From: a virus
Reading direction: 5' to 3' (one strand)
DNA: 23,115 nt
IMG/VR virus record: IMGVR_UViG_3300046454_000346
Coordinates: 1 to 23,115 of that record
Every line of letters begins with the position of its first letter. Position 1 is the stretch's first letter. A model generated the notes under the pieces. It did not search any database. It was not told the origin of the DNA and saw only the letters and a program-made list of their open reading frames with translations. Positions 4,272 to 15,707 of this stretch are shown piece after piece. The translations under genes were made by a program, and so were the position numbers.

Positions 4272-5764
4272 CAACCGCCTTCGCTGAGGCGGCTGACATC
4301 ATCGACCCGCCCATGGTCGGGGCTGCGTTGTACCATGATGACCCGAAAGGGTTTGTCCATGACTGCTTCATCTGGAAGGACGACGATCCCGGACCGACCG
4401 ACTACCAGGACGAGGTGCTGGACCGGATCGTCGCAGAGCATCGAGTCGCGGTGTGTGGCCCACACGGTCTGGGCAAGACCACCACGGCAGCGTGGATCAT
4501 CCTGTGGTTCAGCTTGACCAGGGATGCGATGGCTGAGGACTGGAAAGTGCCGACCACCGCATCGGTGTGGAGGCAGCTGGAAAAGTTCCTGTGGCCAGAG
4601 GTTCACAAGTGGGCAGCTCGGCTCAACTGGGAGCTGCTAGAGCGTCGGCCGTTCCGTGACGGTGAAGAGCTGCTCGACATGGCGATCAAGCTGCGCACAG
4701 GTGAGGCGTTCGCAGTCGCCTCAGACGACCCGGCGAAAATCGAGGGTGCGCACGCTGACCAGCTGCTCTACCTGTATGACGAGAGCAAGTCGATCAGCCA
4801 GGAGACCTTTGATGCCTCAGAGGGAGCGTTCTCCGGCGCTGGTATGGATACGTCGGCGGAAGCCTTCGCCCTAGCATCCAGCACCCCAGGAGAGCCGCAG
4901 GGACGTTTCTACGACATTCAAAAGCGGCGACCCGGCACCGAGGACTGGTCAGTCAAGAAGGTGACCAAGGAGGAAGTCCAGGCAGCCGGTCGGATGTCGA
5001 AGGAATGGGCCGAGCAACGCGAGAAGCAGTGGGGCAAGGAATCGGCGGTGTACATCAACCGCGTGCTGGGCGACTTCGCGTCCAGCGAGGAGGACACCGT
5101 CATTCCGCTGAGCTGGGTCGAAGCAGCCAACGAGCGTTGGCATGAGGAGCATGAGGACTGGAGCGCCGACCTAGAGAACGTCGGCTGCGACATCGCGCGG
5201 TCCGGCAAAGACAAGACCGTGCTCGCCCTGCGTCGAGGCAGCCTCTTGACTGAGCTACGCAGGTTCACCAGGCAGGGCACGATGGAGACCACCGGGGTGA
5301 TCAAGGGTGTGCTCCAAATAGATCCCGCAGCCATCGCGACGGTGGACGTCATCGGGATCGGCGCGGGCGTCGTAGACCGACTGCTGGAGATGGGGATGCC
5401 CTGCGAGCCGTTCAACGCGAGCGAGCGCACCGAGGTGCTGGACAGCACAGGCGAGCTGGGCTTTGTCAACTGTCGCGCAGCCAGCTGGTGGAACCTACGC
5501 GAGCTGCTGGACCCTGACAGCACCTATGACGCCATTGCGCTGCCGCCCGACGACATGCTTACCGGCGACCTGACCGCTCCGCACTGGAGGGTGATGAGCG
5601 GTGGACGTATCCAGGTCGAGTCCAAGCAGGACATCATCAAACGACTCGGCCGCAGCACCGACGACGGCGACGCCGTGGTCATGGCCTTCTGGGAAGGACA
5701 GCCGCGTGAACAGGAGCATGTCGAGGAGACATGGGAACCCGAAACGATTGGAGCAGACATATGA
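4268..5764 (+). CDS. Terminase large subunit (packaging ATPase and nuclease)
   Basis: The terminase large subunit pumps DNA into the prohead using ATP and cuts it at the start and end of packaging. The 498-residue protein has a Walker A loop (GPHGLGKTT, residues 64-72), a Walker B strand ending in acids (LLYLYDE, 166-172) and a coupling motif (ASSTP, 203-207). The C-terminal RNase H-like nuclease shows the first acid at D308 (GCDIARSGKDKT), the second at D360 (ATVDVIGIGAG) and a last acidic pair near D466/D468 (DDGDAVVMAFW). Length and order fit the family. The start overlaps the preceding gene by ATGA and the stop overlaps the protease gene at 5761 in the same way. Confidence 0.93.
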   Translation: MTTAFAEAADIIDPPMVGAALYHDDPKGFVHDCFIWKDDDPGPTDYQDEVLDRIVAEHRVAVCGPHGLGKTTTAAWIILWFSLTRDAMAEDWKVPTTASVWRQLEKFLWPEVHKWAARLNWELLERRPFRDGEELLDMAIKLRTGEAFAVASDDPAKIEGAHADQLLYLYDESKSISQETFDASEGAFSGAGMDTSAEAFALASSTPGEPQGRFYDIQKRRPGTEDWSVKKVTKEEVQAAGRMSKEWAEQREKQWGKESAVYINRVLGDFASSEEDTVIPLSWVEAANERWHEEHEDWSADLENVGCDIARSGKDKTVLALRRGSLLTELRRFTRQGTMETTGVIKGVLQIDPAAIATVDVIGIGAGVVDRLLEMGMPCEPFNASERTEVLDSTGELGFVNCRAASWWNLRELLDPDSTYDAIALPPDDMLTGDLTAPHWRVMSGGRIQVESKQDIIKRLGRSTDDGDAVVMAFWEGQPREQEHVEETWEPETIGADI

Positions 5765-6531
5765 GCTACGCCGCAGAGCTGTTGGGCATTCGCAACTACG
5801 GGTGGAAGCCCTCGCTTCCCGATGCCCGCGACATACAGGCGTTCGCCACGCCGCCCGCGCCGTTGGCTGTCGAGCTGCCCGACGAGTTCAGCTTGCGCGA
5901 CGAGATGCCCGGCGTCTACGACCAGGGACAGCTCGGCTCCTGCACAGCGAACGCCATCGCTGGTGCGCTCCAGTACGCGAACATCAAGGCGGGCCATGAT
6001 TTCGGTGTTCCGTCGCGGCTGTTCATCTACTACTGCGAGCGCTTGCGCGAGGGCAGCGTCACTCAGGACGCCGGAGCCTACGGCCGCGACGGATTCGCCT
6101 CGCTTCGCAAGACTGGCGCACCCCCAGAGACCGTCTGGCCATACGTCATCGAACGCTTCGCTGACAAGCCGAGCGACGAGGCGTATGCCGATGCCGGGGC
6201 GAACCGCATCAAGCACTACACACACGCTCGCACATCGGCGCTGGAGGTCAAGCTGTTGGTGGCCGACCACAAACCTGTCGCGTTCGGCATGAGCGTGCCG
6301 CAGTGCTTTGAGGGAGAAGCCTGCATGACGACCGGCATCATGCCGGAATTCACCAAGGGTGAATCCTTCATCGGCGGCCACGAGATGCTGATCATCGGAT
6401 GGAAACCCGGCTACTTTGAGGTGCGCAACAGCTGGGGTCCGAACGTCATGGACGCTGGCCACGTCTGGATTCCGGAGACATTCCTGTTCGGCGGCTACGC
6501 CAGCGACTTCAGGGCGATACAGGCGATCTGA
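5761..6531 (+). CDS. Papain-like (C1A family) cysteine protease
   Basis: This 256-residue protein carries the complete active site of the papain family: the oxyanion Gln and nucleophilic Cys in YDQGQLGSCTANAIAGAL (Q55, C61), the catalytic His in GGHEMLIIGW (H207) and the Asn in EVRNSWGP (N223). The order and spacing match known C1A peptidases. The N-terminus (GWKPSLPDARD) resembles the short lead-in of bacterial and archaeal members. There is no signal peptide, so it should act in the cytoplasm or as a virion part. The frame is open to an ATG at 5731, but the ATG at 5761 has a GGAG upstream and overlaps the terminase stop (ATGA), so it is chosen. Lying between terminase and portal, it could process a virion or host protein; the target is unknown. 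A separate prohead protease exists at 12694, so capsid maturation need not be its job. Confidence 0.85.
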   Translation: MSYAAELLGIRNYGWKPSLPDARDIQAFATPPAPLAVELPDEFSLRDEMPGVYDQGQLGSCTANAIAGALQYANIKAGHDFGVPSRLFIYYCERLREGSVTQDAGAYGRDGFASLRKTGAPPETVWPYVIERFADKPSDEAYADAGANRIKHYTHARTSALEVKLLVADHKPVAFGMSVPQCFEGEACMTTGIMPEFTKGESFIGGHEMLIIGWKPGYFEVRNSWGPNVMDAGHVWIPETFLFGGYASDFRAIQAI

Positions 6532-6686
6532 TGACCACCCTGCGCATGACGATGTTCCAATGCGTCGATGCCAAGTCGCAGGTGGCGTTGCATACAGCGG
6601 TCTACAGCGAGAAGCGTGCGCAGGACCAGGCCAACAAGAGCATCAAACGCGGCCGAGCCGCCATCGTGATCAGGGTCGAGCCGTAG
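6531..6686 (+). CDS. Small hypothetical protein (51 aa)
   Basis: The ATG shares a base with the stop of the protease gene (TGATG at 6529-6533) and the stop at 6684-6686 is four bases before the portal start. The 51-residue product has a beta-like first half (MTMFQCVDAKSQVALHTAVY), a basic helical stretch and a final beta-like strand (AAIVIRVEP). No family was recognised. Tight packing between two genes and the sensible composition support coding. It might work with the protease or with the portal. Confidence 0.55.
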   Translation: MTTLRMTMFQCVDAKSQVALHTAVYSEKRAQDQANKSIKRGRAAIVIRVEP

Positions 6687-6690
6687 ACGG

Positions 6691-8337
6691 ATGGCCGGAC
6701 CGATCCAAACATTGCGGGAGGCCATCACAGGCGGCGGCGGGGCTGTGCCGTCTCCTGGAGAGGTCGATCCGGTCGAGGCGTTGCATGAGCAGCTCAACCA
6801 GGAGCGTCTGAACAACGAGATCATCCAAGAGAACCTCCAGATGCTGGAGATGTCGATGGAGGAAGAAGGGTGGCGCCGGGCGGGCTGGCGCATGCAGAGG
6901 GAATTCTCCCGACGCGGCCTGGACAACATAATCAACCTGTCGCGCAGCTACTACCTGTCGCACCCGCTGATCCAGCGCGCCGTCAACATCGTCACCTTCT
7001 ACACCTGGGCACAGGGCGTCGAAATGAACGCCGTCGAGGACCAAGTGCAAAAAGAGGTGGTCGAGCCGCTGGAAGCCGACGACTACAACCAGATGGAGTT
7101 GTACTCGCACCAGGCTGCGCTGCTCACCCAAGTGGACAAGCTCGTTGACGGCAATGTGTTCATCGCGATGTTCACCAACTACGACGCCGACGTTTCGCTG
7201 CGCTCGATACCGGCCGACCAGGTGCGGCAGATCTTCACCAAAGACGGTGACTCGCGATTCATCAAGTTCTACCTGCGCGAATGGTCGGAAGTGGTGTTTG
7301 ACGACAAGACCGGAACGCAGACCACCGAGACCAAGCGCTGCCTGTACCCGGACTGGCGGTACTTCCCCAAACAGCAGCCCAAGACCATCGGCGGCATCGA
7401 AGTGATGTGGGACGCTCCGATCATCCACATGAAGACCGGCGGCTTGAAGTCGATGCTGTTTGGTGTGCCCGAGACATACAGCGCGCTGGACTGGGCGAGG
7501 GCGTACCGCAAATTCCTGGAGAACTGGCACTCCCTGGTGGCGTCGCTCGCCAAATTCGCCTGGAACGTCAAGACCAAGGGCAGCAAGATCAAACAGGCGA
7601 GGGAAAAACTCCGCTCGACTGTCAAGGACGGCGATGAAGCCCGCGAACAGAATGACATCGCGCCGGGCGCAGCGTTCGTTGGCAAAGAAGGCGATGAAAT
7701 CGCGGCCATCCCCAAGTCCGGCGCGACCACCTCTGCTGACGACGCGAAGCCGAGCCGACTGATGGTGGCATCGGGGATGAACATTCCCGACACCATCCTG
7801 AGCAACGACCCGCAGCAGGGCGCGCTCGCTACGGCGCAGACGCTCGACCGGCCGACCGAGCTGTACATACTGAGCGAACAGGAGACAGAAGCTCAACTGC
7901 GCCGCGACATCGTGCGGTACAACGTCGATGCCAAGATCAGGGTTGGCAAACTGCCTGGCGCAATCACCTGGGATGACGAGGGCAACCAGCACATCGAGCC
8001 GGGCATAGACCCGACGCTGGAAGTCAGCTTCCCGCCGATCCTGGAACACGACCAGCTGGCCGTCATCAAGGCCATCGTGGCTGCGGCGACCCTGGAAGGG
8101 CGAACCGAGGCAGGAACGATCCCACCGCACCAGCTGTCCGAAATGCTGATGGAAGTGCTGGGCGTCGAGGACATCGAAGACGCCATCAAAGAGCTGGACG
8201 AAGCGGAAGAGGACGAGCTGAAACAGAGCGTCGAAGATCTCAAAAACCAGCTCGCTGGCATCCAGGCAGCTCCTCCCGTCCCCGGCTCACCGCCGCCCAA
8301 GCCCGTCCCTCCACCACCGGCTGTGCCGCCCAAATGA
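6691..8337 (+). CDS. Portal protein
   Basis: The portal is a twelve-fold ring at one capsid vertex through which DNA enters and leaves, and to which the terminase and connector proteins dock. This 548-residue protein has the expected length and position (after terminase, before MuF). Features typical of the family are a helical N-terminal part (residues 27-56), a region with LSHPLIQRAVNIVTFYTW (about residues 89-106), a central mixed domain, and a long acidic helical C-terminal part. The last 25 residues or so are almost all proline, with glycine, valine and lysine, which suggests an exposed flexible tail. The assignment rests on these features and on context rather than on a single diagnostic motif. 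The stop overlaps the next start (ATGA at 8334). Confidence 0.85.
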   Translation: MAGPIQTLREAITGGGGAVPSPGEVDPVEALHEQLNQERLNNEIIQENLQMLEMSMEEEGWRRAGWRMQREFSRRGLDNIINLSRSYYLSHPLIQRAVNIVTFYTWAQGVEMNAVEDQVQKEVVEPLEADDYNQMELYSHQAALLTQVDKLVDGNVFIAMFTNYDADVSLRSIPADQVRQIFTKDGDSRFIKFYLREWSEVVFDDKTGTQTTETKRCLYPDWRYFPKQQPKTIGGIEVMWDAPIIHMKTGGLKSMLFGVPETYSALDWARAYRKFLENWHSLVASLAKFAWNVKTKGSKIKQAREKLRSTVKDGDEAREQNDIAPGAAFVGKEGDEIAAIPKSGATTSADDAKPSRLMVASGMNIPDTILSNDPQQGALATAQTLDRPTELYILSEQETEAQLRRDIVRYNVDAKIRVGKLPGAITWDDEGNQHIEPGIDPTLEVSFPPILEHDQLAVIKAIVAAATLEGRTEAGTIPPHQLSEMLMEVLGVEDIEDAIKELDEAEEDELKQSVEDLKNQLAGIQAAPPVPGSPPPKPVPPPPAVPPK

Positions 8338-9143
8338 GCACGACGATGACAAGGCGCTCGATGCTCCGCGAGGTACAGAGCATGCAGAACCAGGTGACGC
8401 CGGGAGCGGCTGTTGTCTACGCGCTCCGCAAAGTTGAGCCGCGCAAAGAAGCGATGATGCGCAGCGAACTGAAGCCGGTGCTGAGAGAGCTAGGTCCGAA
8501 AGTTGCCACAGCCGCTGCCTCTGTTGGCGGGCTACTGGTCGAGCTGGGCGCGAGCGAGTTGACGGCTGCCGAGGAGCAGCGGGTCGAGCTGATATTGGAG
8601 GCCAGCGGCCTGACTGGGTGGAAGCAGGACGTTCTGAAGCCGATATTCCAGCGGGCTTGGTTCCGGGGCGCGAACATGACGGCGCAGGTGCTGAAGCGCT
8701 ACGGCATCGAGCCGACGCTGCGCGACCAGTACGCCCAGAACATGCTGGCGCGGGGTGGCAAACGGATGGGCCTGGTGGACATCGCCGGGGACACCAAAGC
8801 TGCGCTGCTGAAGGCAGTAGACGACGGGCGCGCTCTCGGCGCGAACCCGAACGTCACCGCGAAGTTGATCAGGGCGTATGTGCCAGCGGGCCGCTTTACC
8901 AACGCCGGGTCCGGCTACCGCGCTCGGATGATCGCGCGCACCGAGACTCTCCACTCGGCTCGGATCAGCTCTCTTGAAGTCTACAGGTCGTCACCGCTGG
9001 TGCGCGAAGTTGTCGCATTCGATGGCGAGAGTGATGAGGAATGCGCTGCCCGTAACGGTGCGGTGTTCACCTTTGATGAAGCTGAAGCAGAGGCTAACGA
9101 CACCCACCCAAACTGCGTCCTGGCTTTCGGGCCGGTCGTGTAA
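8334..9143 (+). CDS. MuF-like minor head protein
   Basis: Minor head proteins of the Mu gpF / SPP1 gp7 family bind the portal and are packaged in small numbers. The 269-residue product shows the family's C-terminal pattern: the ARTETLHSAR helix (around residues 201-210), then a cysteine/acidic segment SDEECAARNG (233-242, C237) and a final THPNC (H258, C261), which together form a probable metal site. The N-terminal 150 residues are helical. Directly following the portal gene is the standard location. No toxin or enzyme domain is fused at the C-terminus, as is seen in some relatives. The start overlaps the portal stop by four bases. Confidence 0.8.
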   Translation: MSTTMTRRSMLREVQSMQNQVTPGAAVVYALRKVEPRKEAMMRSELKPVLRELGPKVATAAASVGGLLVELGASELTAAEEQRVELILEASGLTGWKQDVLKPIFQRAWFRGANMTAQVLKRYGIEPTLRDQYAQNMLARGGKRMGLVDIAGDTKAALLKAVDDGRALGANPNVTAKLIRAYVPAGRFTNAGSGYRARMIARTETLHSARISSLEVYRSSPLVREVVAFDGESDEECAARNGAVFTFDEAEAEANDTHPNCVLAFGPVV

Positions 9144-9155
9144 GGAGACCACCCC

Positions 9156-11873
9156 ATGGCATACCCTGCAACCCTTGACGCACTCCCCACCACCAGTAAA
9201 AACGAAGACCTCTCCAAAAACACACACCCGAAACTTCATAACGACGTCAATGACGCGATCAATCGACTTGAGGAAGTTCTTGGACTAGAACCCCAGGGAG
9301 GCTCCGGCACAGTTGGCGAACGCATTGCGGCCGTCGAGCAGTCCATCACCGCCATTGACCTTGTGCCAGAGAACTACGGCGCTAAAGGCGACGGGGTTAC
9401 CGACGACACGGAAGCCTTTGAAAAATGCAGCAAAGCCATCAAAGCCGCCCATTCAGGCAAAGGCGGCACGATGTTCTTGCGAGCGGTCACCTACATTCTT
9501 GACAACTTCATCTGGGAAAACAAGATCACGATAGAAGGGTCCGGCCAGCAGGCCACAACCCTGAAAGCCAAGGCCGGGTCCACGAACCCCGTAATCAGAA
9601 TTGGCGCTGGGAAGGTCGAAGGCGGCTGGAGGAACTTGCAAGTTGCCTCTAACGGGAATGCGGGACAGCACGGCTTCCAACTGCACGCAGTCGAAAACGA
9701 AACCGGCGGCGGAGTCTGGAACTCGGACTTCACCAACGTTCAGGTTGGCAGCTTCTCAGGTTGCCAGATGTGGTTCCAGGGCGGCGCGATAGGCGCAGGG
9801 GAACCGCACCAGAACGTCACATTCCACAATGTGTACCTGCGCCGTCCGGATACGGGGACCGGAGCAACCACCAGTCGCGGGTTCAAAGCGACAGGACAGT
9901 GTGCCAAGTTCTACTTTGACACCGACTGCGTGATTCAGGGCATTACCAATCTCGGCGAAGGCAAAGCCGTTGGAACCAACATCGAGCTGTCCCGTGAGTT
10001 CTTGCAGACGACCACGCTGAGCGCTGAAGCAGCGGCCGGGCAGAAAAAAGTCAAACTGACTTCAGTTGCGGGGCTGGAAGCCAACAAGCTGGTGTCCATT
10101 GGCGAGGGTGCCTTCAACGAGCTTTGCGAAATCGAATCCATCGCGGGTTCGGAAGTCACGATGAAAGCAAACCTTGAATTCACCCATGCCAACGGGGACA
10201 CTTTCTACGCCTTGTCAGGCACCGTTGGCGCTCCGGCCACCAAAGCTCCGGTCTTCTTCCTGTTCGACGGGGCAACAATTCAGAACGCCGATCTAGAGGC
10301 TCTGGTTGACTCCGCTCAGTGGGTCATCTTCAAGGCATGCGACGCGGAGAACCAGGCGCGCGTGATGAAGGTGAGGCACGAAGGCTTCCAGGTCCACTTC
10401 CAAGGTAATGTGTCCGGAGCTACTGAAGGAACCGCGCTCGGATCGGGAACACTCACACCCGGCTCCAAAATCATCACGGGCGCCAACGCTGGTTGGGTCA
10501 ACGGCGACAAAATCAACGGTCGCGGCATCCCGGCAGGAACCACCGTTGAATCGGGCGGTGGTGGCGCCGAAATTCACATCACCAACAACGTAGAAGAAAC
10601 TACGGGCGGCGAAACGGCCATGACCGGCGTCCCCCTGGTCAAGGGCGGCGAAGGCAAAGGATACATCGCAGACTACGGGGCTGGGTGCCAGGGCAGCGTT
10701 TCATATTTCCCGAATGGCGGGATTGACAACGCCGTCATCTGCCATGGGGAACATGGAGTGCGGGTCAAAGAGCTTGCGCGCAAATCCGCAACGACGTTCC
10801 AGAACACAACCGGCATCACGCGGAGCATGGGAACCGCTGAAGTGCTTAATCTTGGAGGAGCGCTGGCTGCGTCATTGACGAACGCCACCAACTCCATCAA
10901 GTTCATCTCCGGTACGCACGCAACCGGAGAGAGAATCCGCATCACCGCGACGGTGGCCGCCACCAAATTCATCACAGGCGGCAATATCACTTTGCCGGGC
11001 GGAGTTAACTTGACCCTCGCTGCAGGCGAGACGGTCAACCTGGAGAAGACAGACGCCGGGCCGACAACTTGGATAGTCATCGGGGTGCAGCGTACCAGCA
11101 CAGCCGTCCCTACTGCACCAACTATCGTCACCGCGACAAACGCCGCTCTGGCGGTGCCTGCGGGAGCTGGCCATGCGTTGGTCACCGTAGTCGGCGGTGG
11201 AGCTGGCGGAGGCGGCGGAGGAGCTGACGCAAAAGAATCTCCTGTGAACACTCAGGTTGGTGGCGGCGGTGGCGGGTCGGGTCAGTCGGTCACAAAGTTG
11301 ATCTCGCTGGCAGAAGCCGCGACCCTCAATGTCACAATCGGCGCGGCTGGGATCGGCGGTGCGGGCGGCGCAGCCAGCTCCAACAACGAAGGCCATGCCG
11401 GGGAAGAAGGCAAAGCCGCGAACACCGACACCACCGTGGCGGGAACAGGGTTCACAACGGTGACCGCGCGTGGTGGGTCTGGCGGTAAGGCTGGGGCTGC
11501 CAAATCAGCAGCAACAGTCAACGCCGGGGTATACGGCGGTCGTGCTACGGGTGGTCAGACCAGCACAAACTGGATGGCTGGAGGTGGAGGCGCAGCAGCC
11601 TCAGCGAGCGGAGGGGGTGGAGGTTCCGCCATAGGTGCGTCCGGCCGAGGTGGTGGGGCTGGAGGGCCAGCCAACGGCGCCAACGGCGGCAGCGCAGGAG
11701 CGGAAGGAACCATCTCTTCCAAAACAGGCACCACCGAAGGAGGCACACCAGGAAATGCTCCGGAAAACTCCGGTCAGGGTGGCGACGGTGGTGGCGGTGG
11801 CGCTCCGCAGGGCAAAGGCGGCTCAGGCGGAAACGGCGGTTCAGGCGTAGTGATCATAAGTTGGCTGCCGTAG
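9156..11873 (+). CDS. Spike/fibre-like protein: pectate-lyase-type fold with glycine-rich C-terminus
   Basis: This 905-residue protein is built like a receptor-binding spike. Residues 1-65 look like an attachment domain with a short coiled coil. YGAKGDGVTDDTEAFEKC (74-91) is the hallmark opening of the Pectate_lyase_3 beta-helix. The middle has beta repeats, including segments of the types LSAEAAAGQKKVKLTSVAG and GSGTLTPGSKIITG that recur in phage surface proteins. From about residue 676 to the end it is glycine-rich (up to six Gly in a row) and closes with GSGVVIISWLP, as in glycine-rich tail-fibre tips. The ribosome-binding site AAGGAGA is just upstream. Such genes normally follow the tape measure; here it sits inside the head module, so it may be a head fibre or a displaced tail spike. 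Many Lys codons are AAA, unlike the upstream genes. Confidence 0.8.
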   Translation: MAYPATLDALPTTSKNEDLSKNTHPKLHNDVNDAINRLEEVLGLEPQGGSGTVGERIAAVEQSITAIDLVPENYGAKGDGVTDDTEAFEKCSKAIKAAHSGKGGTMFLRAVTYILDNFIWENKITIEGSGQQATTLKAKAGSTNPVIRIGAGKVEGGWRNLQVASNGNAGQHGFQLHAVENETGGGVWNSDFTNVQVGSFSGCQMWFQGGAIGAGEPHQNVTFHNVYLRRPDTGTGATTSRGFKATGQCAKFYFDTDCVIQGITNLGEGKAVGTNIELSREFLQTTTLSAEAAAGQKKVKLTSVAGLEANKLVSIGEGAFNELCEIESIAGSEVTMKANLEFTHANGDTFYALSGTVGAPATKAPVFFLFDGATIQNADLEALVDSAQWVIFKACDAENQARVMKVRHEGFQVHFQGNVSGATEGTALGSGTLTPGSKIITGANAGWVNGDKINGRGIPAGTTVESGGGGAEIHITNNVEETTGGETAMTGVPLVKGGEGKGYIADYGAGCQGSVSYFPNGGIDNAVICHGEHGVRVKELARKSATTFQNTTGITRSMGTAEVLNLGGALAASLTNATNSIKFISGTHATGERIRITATVAATKFITGGNITLPGGVNLTLAAGETVNLEKTDAGPTTWIVIGVQRTSTAVPTAPTIVTATNAALAVPAGAGHALVTVVGGGAGGGGGGADAKESPVNTQVGGGGGGSGQSVTKLISLAEAATLNVTIGAAGIGGAGGAASSNNEGHAGEEGKAANTDTTVAGTGFTTVTARGGSGGKAGAAKSAATVNAGVYGGRATGGQTSTNWMAGGGGAAASASGGGGGSAIGASGRGGGAGGPANGANGGSAGAEGTISSKTGTTEGGTPGNAPENSGQGGDGGGGGAPQGKGGSGGNGGSGVVIISWLP

Positions 11874-11893
11874 TGACACCGCAGGAAGAAAAG

Positions 11894-12067
11894 ATGGGCG
11901 GCGTCCTGGATGGCAAGGGCATGCTCGGCTCCGACACGCTGGGCTTTGGCACGCTCGGCGCTAGCGGACCGAGTGCCATCTGGGATGACGCCGAGCTTGG
12001 AGTCGAGTTTGAACCCGGAACGGTGTTGTTGCGGGACTACGGATGTTTCTACCCCAGCGAAGCGTAG
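11894..12067 (+). CDS. Small hypothetical protein (57 aa)
   Basis: The 57-residue product is rich in Gly, Leu and acidic residues (GGVLDGKGMLGSDTLGFG) and has no known domain. The ATG at 11894 is chosen because GCAGGAAG lies about five bases upstream. A GTG at 11873 overlapping the spike stop (TAGTG) and a TTG at 11861 are alternative starts without a ribosome-binding site. It is followed 10 bases later by another small gene. It could be a chaperone or small partner of the spike; this is inference from position. Confidence 0.55.
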   Translation: MGGVLDGKGMLGSDTLGFGTLGASGPSAIWDDAELGVEFEPGTVLLRDYGCFYPSEA

Positions 12068-12077
12068 AAAGGAAAGC

Positions 12078-12281
12078 ATGCAAATCAGAATCACAAACGA
12101 CGCAGAGGGATGTCCCAAGGTGGAGGTCGTCAACCCAGGTGGAGACGGCACCCCAGAGCAGATCCTCTCAAGCGTCGAGTTGGCGCACAGCCAGCAGGTA
12201 ACCATCACAGCGGTCAACGCCCATGAGGCGTCCGACATCGAAGTCGGCTCAGTGACCGCGTCACCCGAGGAGACATCATGA
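12078..12281 (+). CDS. Small beta-rich hypothetical protein (67 aa)
   Basis: A good ribosome-binding site (AAAGGAAAG) precedes the ATG at 12078. The 67-residue acidic protein alternates short hydrophobic strands (MQIRITND, KVEVVNP, QQVTITAVNA) and looks like a compact beta domain. No family was recognised. Its stop overlaps the next start by ATGA (12278), which suggests the two are made together. Small beta domains in this part of phage genomes are often capsid surface proteins, but this one has not been tied to a family. Confidence 0.6.
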   Translation: MQIRITNDAEGCPKVEVVNPGGDGTPEQILSSVELAHSQQVTITAVNAHEASDIEVGSVTASPEETS

Positions 12282-12673
12282 AGAAGTTCCTGAAGACAAT
12301 CGGGCTTGCGCTCGGCGTCGCTTTGGCGATGTCGATGGCGGAAGTCCAGCGCGCTCGGCAGAAGACGGTCGCGGCCGGTGCCGAACCCGTCGTGGTCGAA
12401 CCTGCGGCCAACGATGTCAACCTGATCCCGAATGGGGACGGCGCAACATTGGTCCGCGTGACGGCTCCGGCGGAAGCCATCGAAGTAACGGTGATCACGC
12501 CAAATCAGGTCGGCGGGAATCCAATCGAAGACCTCAAAAACCCGATTGGTTCCACCAAAACCGAGGTCATGGGTCCGTTCGACCCGAGCGTCTACAACAA
12601 CGCCAACGGCCAGCTGGAATTGAAAGTCAACAAAGCGGCCTGCAAAATCGAGATCTTCAACGTCGCCTTCTAG
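12278..12673 (+). CDS. Possible surface/decoration protein with hydrophobic N-terminus (131 aa)
   Basis: The first 22 residues read like a signal peptide or membrane anchor: a basic start (MKKFLK), a hydrophobic core (IGLALGVALAMSMA) and then a charged segment. Residues about 45-131 form a beta-rich domain (LVRVTAPAEAIEVTVITP, EVMGPFDPSVYNNANGQL, KIEIFNVAF) similar in style to small actinophage head proteins that share a G-P-F-x-P-x-x-Y segment. The resemblance is from memory and should be treated as tentative. A hydrophobic leader is odd on a head protein. It is the last of three small genes between the spike and the prohead protease. Confidence 0.6.
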   Translation: MKKFLKTIGLALGVALAMSMAEVQRARQKTVAAGAEPVVVEPAANDVNLIPNGDGATLVRVTAPAEAIEVTVITPNQVGGNPIEDLKNPIGSTKTEVMGPFDPSVYNNANGQLELKVNKAACKIEIFNVAF

Positions 12674-12693
12674 GCCGACCGCGAACTGAAAGG

Positions 12694-14184
12694 ATGATGA
12701 TGACGACCGCTCAGCTAACAGAGATCCTGGAGGCGCGTGCCCGAACTCCATTCAGGGAGGGCGCAGCCGCCGGAGTGAAGCGGGAGATCACCATCATCGA
12801 AGCTGGGTGGGGTTCGTCCGGCTACTACTCCGAGCAGGTGCTGGAGCGCGACATACCGCGCATCTTCCCAATCGGGACCCATATGTACTTGGATCACCCG
12901 ACGCTGAGGGAGGACAAGGAACGTCCTGAGCGTTCTCTCCGCGATCTGGTCGGGGTAGTAGTCGAGACCCCGCGCATGTCCGGCATCGCCTCTGTGGCGG
13001 TGTGTGAAATCTTTGAGCACTGGGTTCCGGTGATCGACGCGCTCGCTGAGCACATCGGCACCAGCATCCGGGCGTTCGGCACCAGCGAGGAAGGCGACGC
13101 TGGCGGCAGGACCGGCCCGATCATCCACCAGCTCACCGAGGGCGTGTCAATCGACTATGTGACGCTGGCTGGTGCTGGCGGCAAGGTCGGCCCGCTGGTC
13201 GAGAGCGCGCAGGCGAAGGTGCTGCCGCTCATCGAGTCGGCGCGGGCTGCGCGATCTGTCGATGAGGCTCTCAACTCAGACCTGTCTACCAACCTGGAAA
13301 AGGCTGGCGAAGAAAAGTGGGGGTCCAAGGAACCGTACACCTATGTCTACGTTGAAGACTTTGACGTTGACGAAAACTGGGCGGTGTTCTCCGTCCGGCC
13401 GAGCGGCAACGACCGGGTGCTGAAGCGCATCTCGTTTGTCCGCAACACCGAGGGTGACGTTGCGCTAAGCGGTGATGGTGAAGAGGTCGAGCGCGTCACC
13501 ACCTATGAGCCAGCCGACGACGGCATGACCGTCGCAGAACTGAACATGGACACGGTGATGGCGTCGATGCCGCCGAGCTTCTCGGACAACGAGAAGTTCA
13601 AGGAGTCATTCAAAGACTTAATCCAAGAGTTTGACAACAGCGGCTCCGGCCGTGCAACCAAGGAGGCCCAAATGGGCGAGGAGAATCGCCAGCTGTCGGA
13701 GCTGCAAGAGTCGGTCCGGCGGCTGGAGGAGGCTCAGAAAGAGAACGACAAAAAAGTCGAGTCTCTGGAAGAGTCCAAAAAAGCGGAGACCGACCGCGCT
13801 GACCGTGCAGAGGAAGCTCTCCTGCGCGTCGAGGCCGAAAAGGTCATCGTCAAGGTTCTGGAAGATTCCGAGGGTCTGCCCAGCAAGGCGACCGAGCGGG
13901 TCATCGAGAACTCACTCCAAGGAGACCTGCCGGTCAACGAAGACGGCAAGCTCAAAAAGGAAACGCTGGAAGAGACCGCCCGCGCGAAGCTGCGCGAGGA
14001 GATCGAGTACATCGGTGAGGCCACCGGTCGCGGCAAGGTCCGCAACCACGGCTCCAGCGATTCCATCACAGAGTCGGGGTCCGAGGACGAGGACAGCGAC
14101 GATGACATCAAGGCTCTGGAGAAGTCGTTTGAAGAGAGCGGCATGTCCGAGGGCGAAGCTCGCATCGCGGCGAGAGGAAGGTAA
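12694..14184 (+). CDS. Prohead protease / scaffold fusion (capsid maturation protease)
   Basis: The N-terminal 170 residues look like a phage prohead serine protease. GTHMYLDHP supplies the candidate catalytic His (H63 or H68), HIGTSIRAFG the Ser (S124), and VSIDYVTLAGAGGKVG (D154) the last strand with a possible acidic partner. Residues about 300-496 are highly charged and helical, with a long coiled coil (LQESVRRLEEAQKENDKK and beyond), as expected of a scaffold that fills the prohead and is then degraded. At 496 residues it is much longer than a free protease, which supports the fusion. It lies just before the decoration and capsid genes. Three consecutive ATGs exist (12694, 12697, 12700); AAAGGA at 12689-12694 fits the third best, so the true protein may be two residues shorter. 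Confidence 0.8.
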   Translation: MMMTTAQLTEILEARARTPFREGAAAGVKREITIIEAGWGSSGYYSEQVLERDIPRIFPIGTHMYLDHPTLREDKERPERSLRDLVGVVVETPRMSGIASVAVCEIFEHWVPVIDALAEHIGTSIRAFGTSEEGDAGGRTGPIIHQLTEGVSIDYVTLAGAGGKVGPLVESAQAKVLPLIESARAARSVDEALNSDLSTNLEKAGEEKWGSKEPYTYVYVEDFDVDENWAVFSVRPSGNDRVLKRISFVRNTEGDVALSGDGEEVERVTTYEPADDGMTVAELNMDTVMASMPPSFSDNEKFKESFKDLIQEFDNSGSGRATKEAQMGEENRQLSELQESVRRLEEAQKENDKKVESLEESKKAETDRADRAEEALLRVEAEKVIVKVLEDSEGLPSKATERVIENSLQGDLPVNEDGKLKKETLEETARAKLREEIEYIGEATGRGKVRNHGSSDSITESGSEDEDSDDDIKALEKSFEESGMSEGEARIAARGR

Positions 14185-14190
14185 GCCAAC

Positions 14191-14535
14191 ATGGCGAAGA
14201 ACCGCAAGTACGACATTGGCAGCGCACCGCTGCCTCTGGTCGTCCCGGAAGGCGGAAAATCGGGTGACCCTGTAGTCATCGGGAACATCCCCGCTGTCCT
14301 CCTGCTGGACTCCCAGTACCCGGCTGCGACTGCCGTTGACACCGGAGGCGTCTACAACCTCCCGGTCGAAGGCAAAAACAAAGCCGGGGAAAAAGCCATC
14401 GAAATTGGGGACATCATCTACATCAAAGGTGGCGTCCTCAGTGTCAACAACGAAGAAGGCGTCAGGTTCGGATACGCGATGGGACCTGTCACCAAAAACA
14501 AAAAAGAAACGATCCCCGTCAAAATCGGGTACTAG
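14191..14535 (+). CDS. Head decoration protein (DUF2190-like)
   Basis: This 114-residue protein has the pattern of small capsid decoration/stabilising proteins: GDPVVIGNIPAV, then AVDTGGVYNLPVEG and AIEIGDIIYIKGG, a set of beta strands like the DUF2190 family. Such proteins trimerise on the mature capsid surface. It lies between the protease and the major capsid gene, the usual place. GGAAGG upstream of the ATG is the ribosome-binding site. Lysine is coded almost only by AAA (10 of 12 by hand count), in contrast to the start of the next gene. Confidence 0.75.
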   Translation: MAKNRKYDIGSAPLPLVVPEGGKSGDPVVIGNIPAVLLLDSQYPAATAVDTGGVYNLPVEGKNKAGEKAIEIGDIIYIKGGVLSVNNEEGVRFGYAMGPVTKNKKETIPVKIGY

Positions 14536-14552
14536 AAAGGAGACTGACTCTT

Positions 14553-15707
14553 ATGGCACAGGTGCTTGAGTTGGTCGAGCGGATGCGGGCCGAGGAGGCC
14601 AGCGTGTCCAAGCTCTTTGGTGGGGATGAGGGCGTACAAGTTCTCCGCCACTCCGCGCAGGATTTGGCGGAGGCCCAGAAGTTCCTAAGCGACATCAAGA
14701 CGGGCCGGAAGAAGTTCTGGCAGTTTGAGGAGGCAATGTCCACCTCTGACTTCCCGATCCTGATGGGCGACATCCTTGACCGGACGTTGCTCGCAGGCTA
14801 CCAGGAGATTTCGCCCTCCTGGCAGGGGTACGTCAAGAAAGGCACCGTTAACGACTTCCGCAAGGCCAAGAAGGTCGCGGTGGACGGTGCCGAGGGAGTG
14901 CTCGGAAAAGTGGGCGAGCAACAGCCCTACCCCGAGGACAGCGTGGCCGACAAGAAGGACGAATATTCCGTCTTCAAGTACGGGAAACGTCTGGCCATCG
15001 ACTGGGAGGACATGATCAACGATGATCTCGGTGGTCTCGACTCCCTTCCTCAGCGGCTCGCCCGTGCAGCTCGACGGACCGAGCAGAAGACAGCAGCGGA
15101 ACTCTGGGTTGGCAAAAAAGGCCCATCGGAAACGCTGTACAAAGCGGAATTCAAAAACGTCATCGAAAAAAATCCACCGCTGAGCATCGCGTCGTTGCAA
15201 CAGGCGCTGCTCCTCCTCTCAGAAATGAAGGACTTCGATGGGGAACCCATCGAAATCGGCGCGGTCACCCTGGTGATCCCGTATGCGCTGGAAGTGACGG
15301 CCAACAACATCCTCCACGCTCTGACGATTGACGTCAACGAGTTCGGCGGAACCGAAAAACAGCGGCTGCGCGCTCAGAACTGGATGAGCAACAAACTCAC
15401 CCTGGTGACCGAGCCGTACATTCCCATGATCGCCAACGAAGCGAATGGCAACACGACATGGGCGCTGTTCGCAACTCCGGGCACTTCGCGTCCGGCCTTG
15501 GAGCTGGGGTTCCTGCGGGGACACGAAGTCCCGGCGCTCTACGAAAAGGCACCCGACGCTCGCCTGGTCGGCGGCGGCGGAGATGCGAGGGAGTCGTTTG
15601 ACAACGACACCATTCAGTACCGCATCCGCCACGTGATGGGCGGCGTCCAGTACATCAACACAGGCGGTTACAAAACCACCGTGGCGTCCAACGGTTCCGG
15701 CGCGTAA
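14553..15707 (+). CDS. Major capsid protein (HK97 fold)
   Basis: The 384-residue protein is assigned as major capsid from its position after protease and decoration genes, its length, and a family-like layout: a helical N-arm (residues 1-60), then an E-loop/spine region (YVKKGTVNDFRKAKKV, EYSVFKYGKRLAIDWE, residues 92-153) and a C-terminal axial and peripheral domain ending in IQYRIRHVMGGVQYINTGGY. No long delta domain is present, in line with a separate scaffold. AAAGGAG at 14536-14542 is the ribosome-binding site. Codon choice changes inside the gene: up to about base 15110 Glu is GAG in 14 of 16 and Lys AAG in 13 of 16 cases; afterwards Glu is GAA in 11 of 15 and Lys AAA in 8 of 10 (hand counts). 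Confidence 0.85.
   Translation: MAQVLELVERMRAEEASVSKLFGGDEGVQVLRHSAQDLAEAQKFLSDIKTGRKKFWQFEEAMSTSDFPILMGDILDRTLLAGYQEISPSWQGYVKKGTVNDFRKAKKVAVDGAEGVLGKVGEQQPYPEDSVADKKDEYSVFKYGKRLAIDWEDMINDDLGGLDSLPQRLARAARRTEQKTAAELWVGKKGPSETLYKAEFKNVIEKNPPLSIASLQQALLLLSEMKDFDGEPIEIGAVTLVIPYALEVTANNILHALTIDVNEFGGTEKQRLRAQNWMSNKLTLVTEPYIPMIANEANGNTTWALFATPGTSRPALELGFLRGHEVPALYEKAPDARLVGGGGDARESFDNDTIQYRIRHVMGGVQYINTGGYKTTVASNGSGA

Follow-up and report, generated by a model that had tools for sequence, protein, structure and literature searches.

The usual place to look for receptor-binding proteins is downstream of the tape measure gene, and head fibres are present in phage phi29. Phage 7-7-1 has capsid fibres as well, whose protein is not known (PMC12796354). 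Another example is HFTV1, which has a capsid turret with a deacetylase-like domain, built of the base gp30 and the head gp31, whose genes lie between the tail completion gene and the tail tube gene (PMC12494034). Large insertions between structural genes in general are reported in two further papers (PMC7302621, PMC5513430). The viral DNA analysed here, IMG/VR virus record IMGVR_UViG_3300046454_000346, positions 1 to 23,115 (the whole stretch of 23,115 nucleotides, hereafter the window), encodes a spike-like protein of 905 residues whose gene stands in the head module, between a MuF-like gene and the prohead protease gene. A search of the literature by titles and abstract openings found no description of a spike gene in a head module, which is no proof of absence in print.

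The 905-residue protein is read here, with about even confidence, as a virion receptor-binding spike of the tail-fibre type that is encoded in the head module and mounted most likely at the tail tip. This type of spike is favoured because four other phages have proteins from tail or baseplate modules that start with the same N-terminal anchor. A tail mount receives about half of our confidence and a capsid mount about a quarter, because of the co-inheritance of the locus with capsid alleles and the precedent of the HFTV1 turrets, both of which are weighed below. Since the gene is not in the tail module but between MuF and a core small gene followed by the protease, the protein is said only to work like a tail spike, and its membership of that class falls short of established. 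The spike gene and its parts are the following:

9156 to 11873, plus strand: 905-aa spike-like protein (open reading frame (ORF), Pfam, and a positional counterpart of 684 aa in relative L002)
9156 to 9284, plus strand: anchor, residues 1-43 (67% identity to L002 residues 1-43; profile of four tail-module N-termini, E 4e-20 among 2750 frames)
9285 to 9350, plus strand: linker to the beta-helix, residues 44-65 (aligned in L113 and L095, mostly missing from L002; partly helix in a low-confidence model)
9372 to 9590, plus strand: start of a putative pectate-lyase-like beta-helix, residues 73-145 (PF12708, E 4.2e-7; 7chu, E 3.5e-6)
11142 to 11864, plus strand: glycine-rich C-terminal domain, residues 663-903 (Gly_rich_2, PF21722, E 1.2e-8; composition)

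The reading frame is not a chance one, since its 905 codons far exceed the longest stop-free stretch (558 codons) over 200 Markov shuffles of the window, and a ribosome-binding-like TAAGGAGA lies upstream of the ATG. The ORF, Pfam and PHROG calls bear out what the original prediction had claimed, namely a 905-residue protein between MuF and the prohead protease. The full-length protein had no match by tblastn among named phages, nor in a scan of viral contigs, and a near DNA search with the window against named phages was likewise without a match.

The match to Pect-lyase_RHGA_epim (PF12708) at residues 73-145 is over its cutoff, and Gly_rich_2 scores 35.7 bits against a gathering cutoff of 24.3 in a region with 33% glycine (residues 661-905); the distal domains are thus of carbohydrate type. 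By phmmer against the PDB, the spike matched the putative pectin lyase 7chu and the 'Gene 14 protein' 7sg7 (E 0.0022), with no capsid fibre or turret protein among the matches, and the glycine-rich part matched the 'Tail wing brush, gp33' (9d93, E 0.0043), which rests on low-complexity sequence. The AlphaFold2 (AF2) model of the spike, with a mean predicted local distance difference test (pLDDT) score of 40, is too poor for a fold search. The earlier description of the protein as beta-helix/glycine-rich therefore stands for Gly_rich_2 at residues 663-903 and for residues 73-145, to which the pectate-lyase-type match is confined; a beta-helix elsewhere in the spike is putative, the model being too poor to confirm it.

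In L002, the 684-aa protein is similar to the spike over the first ~90 residues only (44%), and part of its C-terminus weakly matches a minor tail protein family (phrog_3285, E 0.0015). In L022, the same site holds an anchor-bearing protein of 286 aa, a 460-aa protein and two frames with a GTxG repeat, which is described below. From phage to phage, the anchor stays the same and the distal part is swapped. Whole-contig searches found the anchor in 3 of 16 relatives' records, in the head module of L002 and of L022 and in the tail module of L004. An anchor scan of viral contigs reduced 75 pattern matches to four confirmed loci (L002, L004, L113 and L114), and among named phages residues 1-65 matched two records, MT835568 and a 'tail fiber protein' of Bacillus phage KLEB27-3 (residues 29-63 only).

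KLEB27-3 apart, all four anchor proteins found outside the head-module block lie in tail or baseplate modules. The 452-aa protein of L004, a phage without the block, sits between a 638-aa protein that follows the tape measure and the tail hub, and carries a polysaccharide deacetylase domain (PF01522, E 1.8e-10); phmmer against the PDB gave it no match at E 0.01. The 321-aa protein of L113, which has Collagen, Tail Collar and Gp10_C domains, is encoded between the Baseplate_J and Tail_P2_I genes, and those of L114 and MT835568 follow the tape measure and one further ORF. The MT835568 protein, of 732 aa, has a short GDGVTDDT-like stretch after the anchor; the MuF-protease junction of this phage is without an insert, and tblastn with the N-terminus found only itself. 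With a profile of these four N-termini, the window, L002 and L022 rank 1, 2 and 3 of 2750 frames (E 4e-20, 2e-6 and 0.006), and the real anchor of the window outscores 500 of 500 shuffles of itself. The anchor is thus common to proteins encoded in tail and baseplate modules, and no known capsid fibre or turret protein was among the matches of the anchor profile.

The spike gene is part of an inserted block, whose members and neighbours are:

9148 to 12277, plus strand: inserted block of spike gene, small gene 1 and small gene 2 (blastn against L004)
11873 to 12067, plus strand: small gene 1, 64 aa from GTG, with a TLGFGTLG repeat (83-87% identity to L002 7399-7578)
12078 to 12281, plus strand: small gene 2, 67 aa from ATG 12078 (78% identity to L002 7591-7800)
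12278 to 12673, plus strand: core small gene with a hydrophobic leader ('g131'), 131 aa, predicted beta-sandwich, outside the block (in L004 without the block; AF2)
8334 to 9143, plus strand: MuF-like head morphogenesis protein, left neighbour of the spike gene (Pfam Phage_Mu_F, PHROG)
12694 to 14184, plus strand: prohead protease, to the right of the core small gene (phrog_15531, E 2e-25)

The Phage_Mu_F match on 8334-9143 reaches 22.6 bits, under the cutoff of 29.6, and PHROG head-morphogenesis families also match this gene; 3' of the protease follow a decoration protein and then the major capsid protein (MCP). In the blastn alignment with L004, whose portal is 84% identical to that of the window, the match covers window 5761-9147 and restarts at 12278, with 5 nt between the two in L004. 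Comparison with a relative that lacks the block, as the original prediction had proposed, thus gives borders at 9148 and 12277.

The distribution of the block was read from a protease scan of 76 loci, of which 65 were left after removal of 11 without a protease called by the ORF method. In 10 of the 65, the core small gene precedes the protease, and with L022, one of the 11 uncalled loci, read by hand, they make up 11 relatives, L020 and L049 being similar to each other. L002 (as L028) and L022 carry large ORFs between MuF and the core gene, and the other nine of the 11 have none. The proposal of a cassette holds, given the sharp borders against L004 and the absence of the block from these nine, which share the head module. 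Five more distant phage records (L005-L008 and L095) have no fibre-sized gene at the MuF junction. In a prophage scan with the MCP, the ORFs of the 10 loci had no anchor profile match, and no fibre insert was seen where both MuF and the protease were called, one of the two being uncalled in most of these loci; five of the 10 were actinobacterial or Alkalicoccus isolates and the others mostly metagenome bins. A standard tail spike at this place in close relatives, which had been named as evidence against the prediction, was not found in the strict sense: at this junction they carry either no such gene or a spike that is just as divergent.

Small genes 1 and 2 share 83% and 78% identity with their L002 counterparts, the only matches in scans of viral contigs, and their presence beside a large adhesin-like protein agrees with the accessory factors that had been predicted. 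The start of small gene 1 is most likely the GTG at 11873, judged by the L002 homologue, which also led to the replacement of a 123-aa ORF (11910-12281) by the 67-aa frame from ATG 12078 as small gene 2. The third small gene, that with the hydrophobic leader, had been counted within the cassette and falls outside it, since L004 has it at the usual position without the spike or the other two small genes. It is a core gene of the phage group: its homologues precede the protease in all 11 relatives examined, and 14 labelled ORFs, two of them weak, were found over 13 relative loci besides the window. Tblastn of a distant homologue (L102) against phages found none. The AF2 model of the core protein is good (pLDDT 77.5) but shows only a generic beta-sandwich; the best Foldseek rows are mostly unrelated proteins.

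No mobility domain was found by Pfam among the scanned window ORFs, which leaves the block without the mark of a mobile element, and no repeats of at least 14 nt, direct repeats included, pair its two borders. In another phage, L026, the MuF-protease junction does take mobile elements, with an HNH endonuclease and a TnpB-like IS605 OrfB gene at 6873-9608. L002 has an additional 144-aa ORF (6972-7406) with a basic N-terminus and no Pfam match between the spike and small gene 1, which is not in the window. On the minus strand of the window, a 325-aa antisense ORF without a Pfam match (11774-12751) runs across the end of the block and is probably a shadow frame.

Tail-tip regions were read in nine relatives (L002, L003, L004, L015, L016, L018, L019, L020 and L022), in which 'hub' and 'tail tip' are named from the order of the genes that follow the tape measure; Pfam and PHROG gave no match for either protein. 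Six of the seven without the block have an extra gene, or a long extension of the protein after the tape measure or of the hub, versus neither of the two with it; L015 has neither block nor extra, and the tail tip of L002 consists of a 641-aa protein and a 586-aa hub. This association (p = 0.08, by hand) is suggestive only. Carbohydrate-type Pfam domains occur in four of the six tip extras (L004, L016, L018 and, below cutoff, L019), and none was found at the tail tips of L003 and L020.

The GTxG motif, T[ILFYVM]G.G[TL][ILFYVM][GE], was searched in 22,530 stop-free frames of non-duplicate loci and occurs in six, all in the four anchor-carrying phages of the group: small gene 1 of the window and of L002, the hub N-termini of L002 and L004, and two frames after the L022 spike genes. 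All four anchor phages of the group thus have it, versus none of eight others (L003, L015-L020 and L126, with L017 a 13.7-kb piece), and the hub extensions that bear it are not present on the hubs of L015, L018 and L022. The motif is post hoc, having been set after the examples in the window, L002, L004 and L022, while the 44-aa frame of L022 and the negative L126 came later. In L002, the head-module spike is the single anchor protein and the hub carries the repeat, a pairing which hints at docking on the tail by a spike whose gene lies in the head module. The GTxG-repeat segment is accordingly put forward as a candidate docking partner of the anchor.

The spike gene and its two small partner genes fill an insertion site flanked by MuF and the core small gene. 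In the mechanism that we propose, the spike, presumably a trimer, would dock through its first ~43 residues, with the tail tip as the most likely place on the virion and perhaps with the GTxG-repeat segment, borne by small gene 1 or by the N-terminus of the tail hub, as the partner. The beta-helix of pectate-lyase type would then bind or cut a surface polysaccharide, and the glycine-rich C-terminus would form the distal tip.

Several observations weigh against a tail-tip spike. The core small gene, decoration protein and MCP of the window resemble those of L002 (82, 77 and 78% identity) rather than L004 (68, 55 and 57%), and the block is L002-like as these capsid-surface alleles are, with an L004-like protease in between. 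The portal, MuF, protease, connectors and those tail genes that can be seen resemble their L004 counterparts (71-95%; tape measure 71-98% in stretches of 100 residues), and L004 and L015 are 81% identical in decoration protein and 83% in MCP. The likeness of the anchors is not independent evidence, because the four tail-module proteins were found through their resemblance to the window; only their gene position is. Neither is a gene neighbourhood proof of virion location, because the turret genes of HFTV1 adjoin tail genes. Furthermore, the L022 hub lacks the GTxG repeat, the strict repeat is not in the anchor phages outside the group (L113, L114 and MT835568), and the window stops within the tape measure gene, so that its own tail tip is outside the view. 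As an observation in its own right, decoration protein and MCP at 14191-15707 are of L002 type and the preceding protease of L004 type, which makes two exchange tracts one gene apart.

A somewhat unlikely reading is a capsid-mounted adhesin, a head fibre or turret standing on the core beta-sandwich, the decoration protein or the small block proteins and making a first reversible glycan contact. The position among head genes in three phages (window, L002 and L022) fits it, as does a block protein of L022 in which GTxG repeats are fused to a core-gene-like domain. It would also predict the co-inheritance of the block with the decoration protein and MCP, all of them, like the core small gene, of the L002 allele type while tail and connectors are not, although linkage could also give this pattern, the genes lying within 6.6 kb. 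A capsid system with carbohydrate-binding and deacetylase-like domains is known in the turrets of HFTV1 (PMC12494034), and the L004 anchor protein has a deacetylase domain. The core protein model weakly matches the HFTV1 turret chain 8qpg_TD (Foldseek E 0.034, probability 0.90, template-modelling (TM) score 0.34/0.38), but this is one of many weak matches and is missing from the 50 entries of another fold listing. On balance, the head fibre or capsid-attached adhesin of the original prediction is disfavoured by the anchor family, which begins tail- or baseplate-encoded proteins in L004, L113, L114 and MT835568. A rather unlikely extension would make anchor and GTxG repeat a portable plug and socket, with the socket on the hub (L004, L002) or on small capsid-side proteins (window, L002, L022), unrelated sugar-active heads swapped by one block, and the spike here on the capsid or on both.

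A spike that forms an appendage of the head-tail junction, at the neck or collar, is quite improbable. Head-gene neighbours together with a tail-fibre-like N-terminus would fit such an appendage, and tblastn of residues 1-90 matches preneck appendage proteins of Bacillus phages; these matches, however, cover residues 26-90 or 44-90, mostly the GDGVTDDT stretch and not the first 25 residues, and vanish with residues 1-65 alone, and no neck protein partner was identified. The low G+C content at third codon positions (GC3) of the spike gene, 0.65 versus 0.77-0.81 for terminase, portal, MuF, protease and MCP, could point to a non-structural or decaying passenger, either a free depolymerase or a remnant gene. 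Glycine codons alone may depress GC3, and the 905-codon frame is intact, with the anchor and both small genes 67-83% conserved with L002, which makes a passenger very improbable. The record has no close relative among named phages, as would suit an assembly chimera that set a tail gene beside capsid genes, but the same arrangement in L002 and L022, and the conserved small genes that link spike and core gene in L002, make this scarcely credible and largely refute it. The receptor-binding spike of tail-fibre type, mounted most likely at the tail tip, is therefore retained as the preferred reading.

An actinobacterial host is suggested by the relatives of the MCP and portal: the best MCP relatives in bacterial genomes are from Nocardioides, Glycomyces and Micromonospora, and those of the portal from Arthrobacter and other actinobacterial phages, plus a Methanoculleus virus. 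Between terminase and portal, a papain-family cysteine protease gene (PF00112) is found in the window (5731-6531, E 2.6e-9) and in L022 (3514-4299, E 1.8e-13), and is kept in L002, L003 and L004. Among distant relatives, large ORFs lie beside MuF or the protease in L033 (2-5242, with Laminin_G_3), L037 (4822-8724, with Gly_rich_2 and Laminin_G_3), L042 (3151-6027), L055 (6036-8468) and L024 (7109-8530), the last three without a Pfam match. A 104-aa gene follows the large ORF in L033, L042 and L024, with C-terminal ends similar by eye. From these ORFs, adhesin genes in head modules may be recurrent.

The spike probably aids the virus in sticking to its host. Its gene stands among the capsid genes in the window and in two relatives, L002 and L022, which are without an extra tail-tip domain, so that a position-based search among tail genes would miss the attachment protein. 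Anchor and GTxG repeat are a specific candidate docking pair that is open to testing, and L004, with its cleanly empty site, is a natural control for host-range work in laboratory phages.

Compared with known systems, the protein resembles phage tail spikes with PF12708 in having Pect-lyase_RHGA_epim after a short anchor and a distal part exchanged between relatives; it differs in the place of its gene, between MuF and protease instead of behind the tape measure, and in that its beta-helix and catalytic residues are putative. With the anchor-bearing tail proteins of L004, L113, L114 and MT835568 it shares homologous first 43-65 residues, whereas their genes are in tail or baseplate modules and their distal domains are of deacetylase or collagen/collar type. 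The head fibres of phi29 and the capsid fibres of 7-7-1 correspond to the capsid-attached fibre that was first proposed, with no homology established. HFTV1 turrets likewise combine a large carbohydrate-type head protein with a small partner and have genes not beside tail fibres, but they show no sequence match to spike or anchor, and a capsid location of the spike is only putative. In Arthrobacter phage Jasmine, gp18, a tail spike in the annotation as deposited, is encoded directly beside the MCP gene, on the opposite side of it and compared by gene position only. At this locus a modular spike, in itself a familiar kind of protein, is found in an unusual position, together with a new candidate docking pair.

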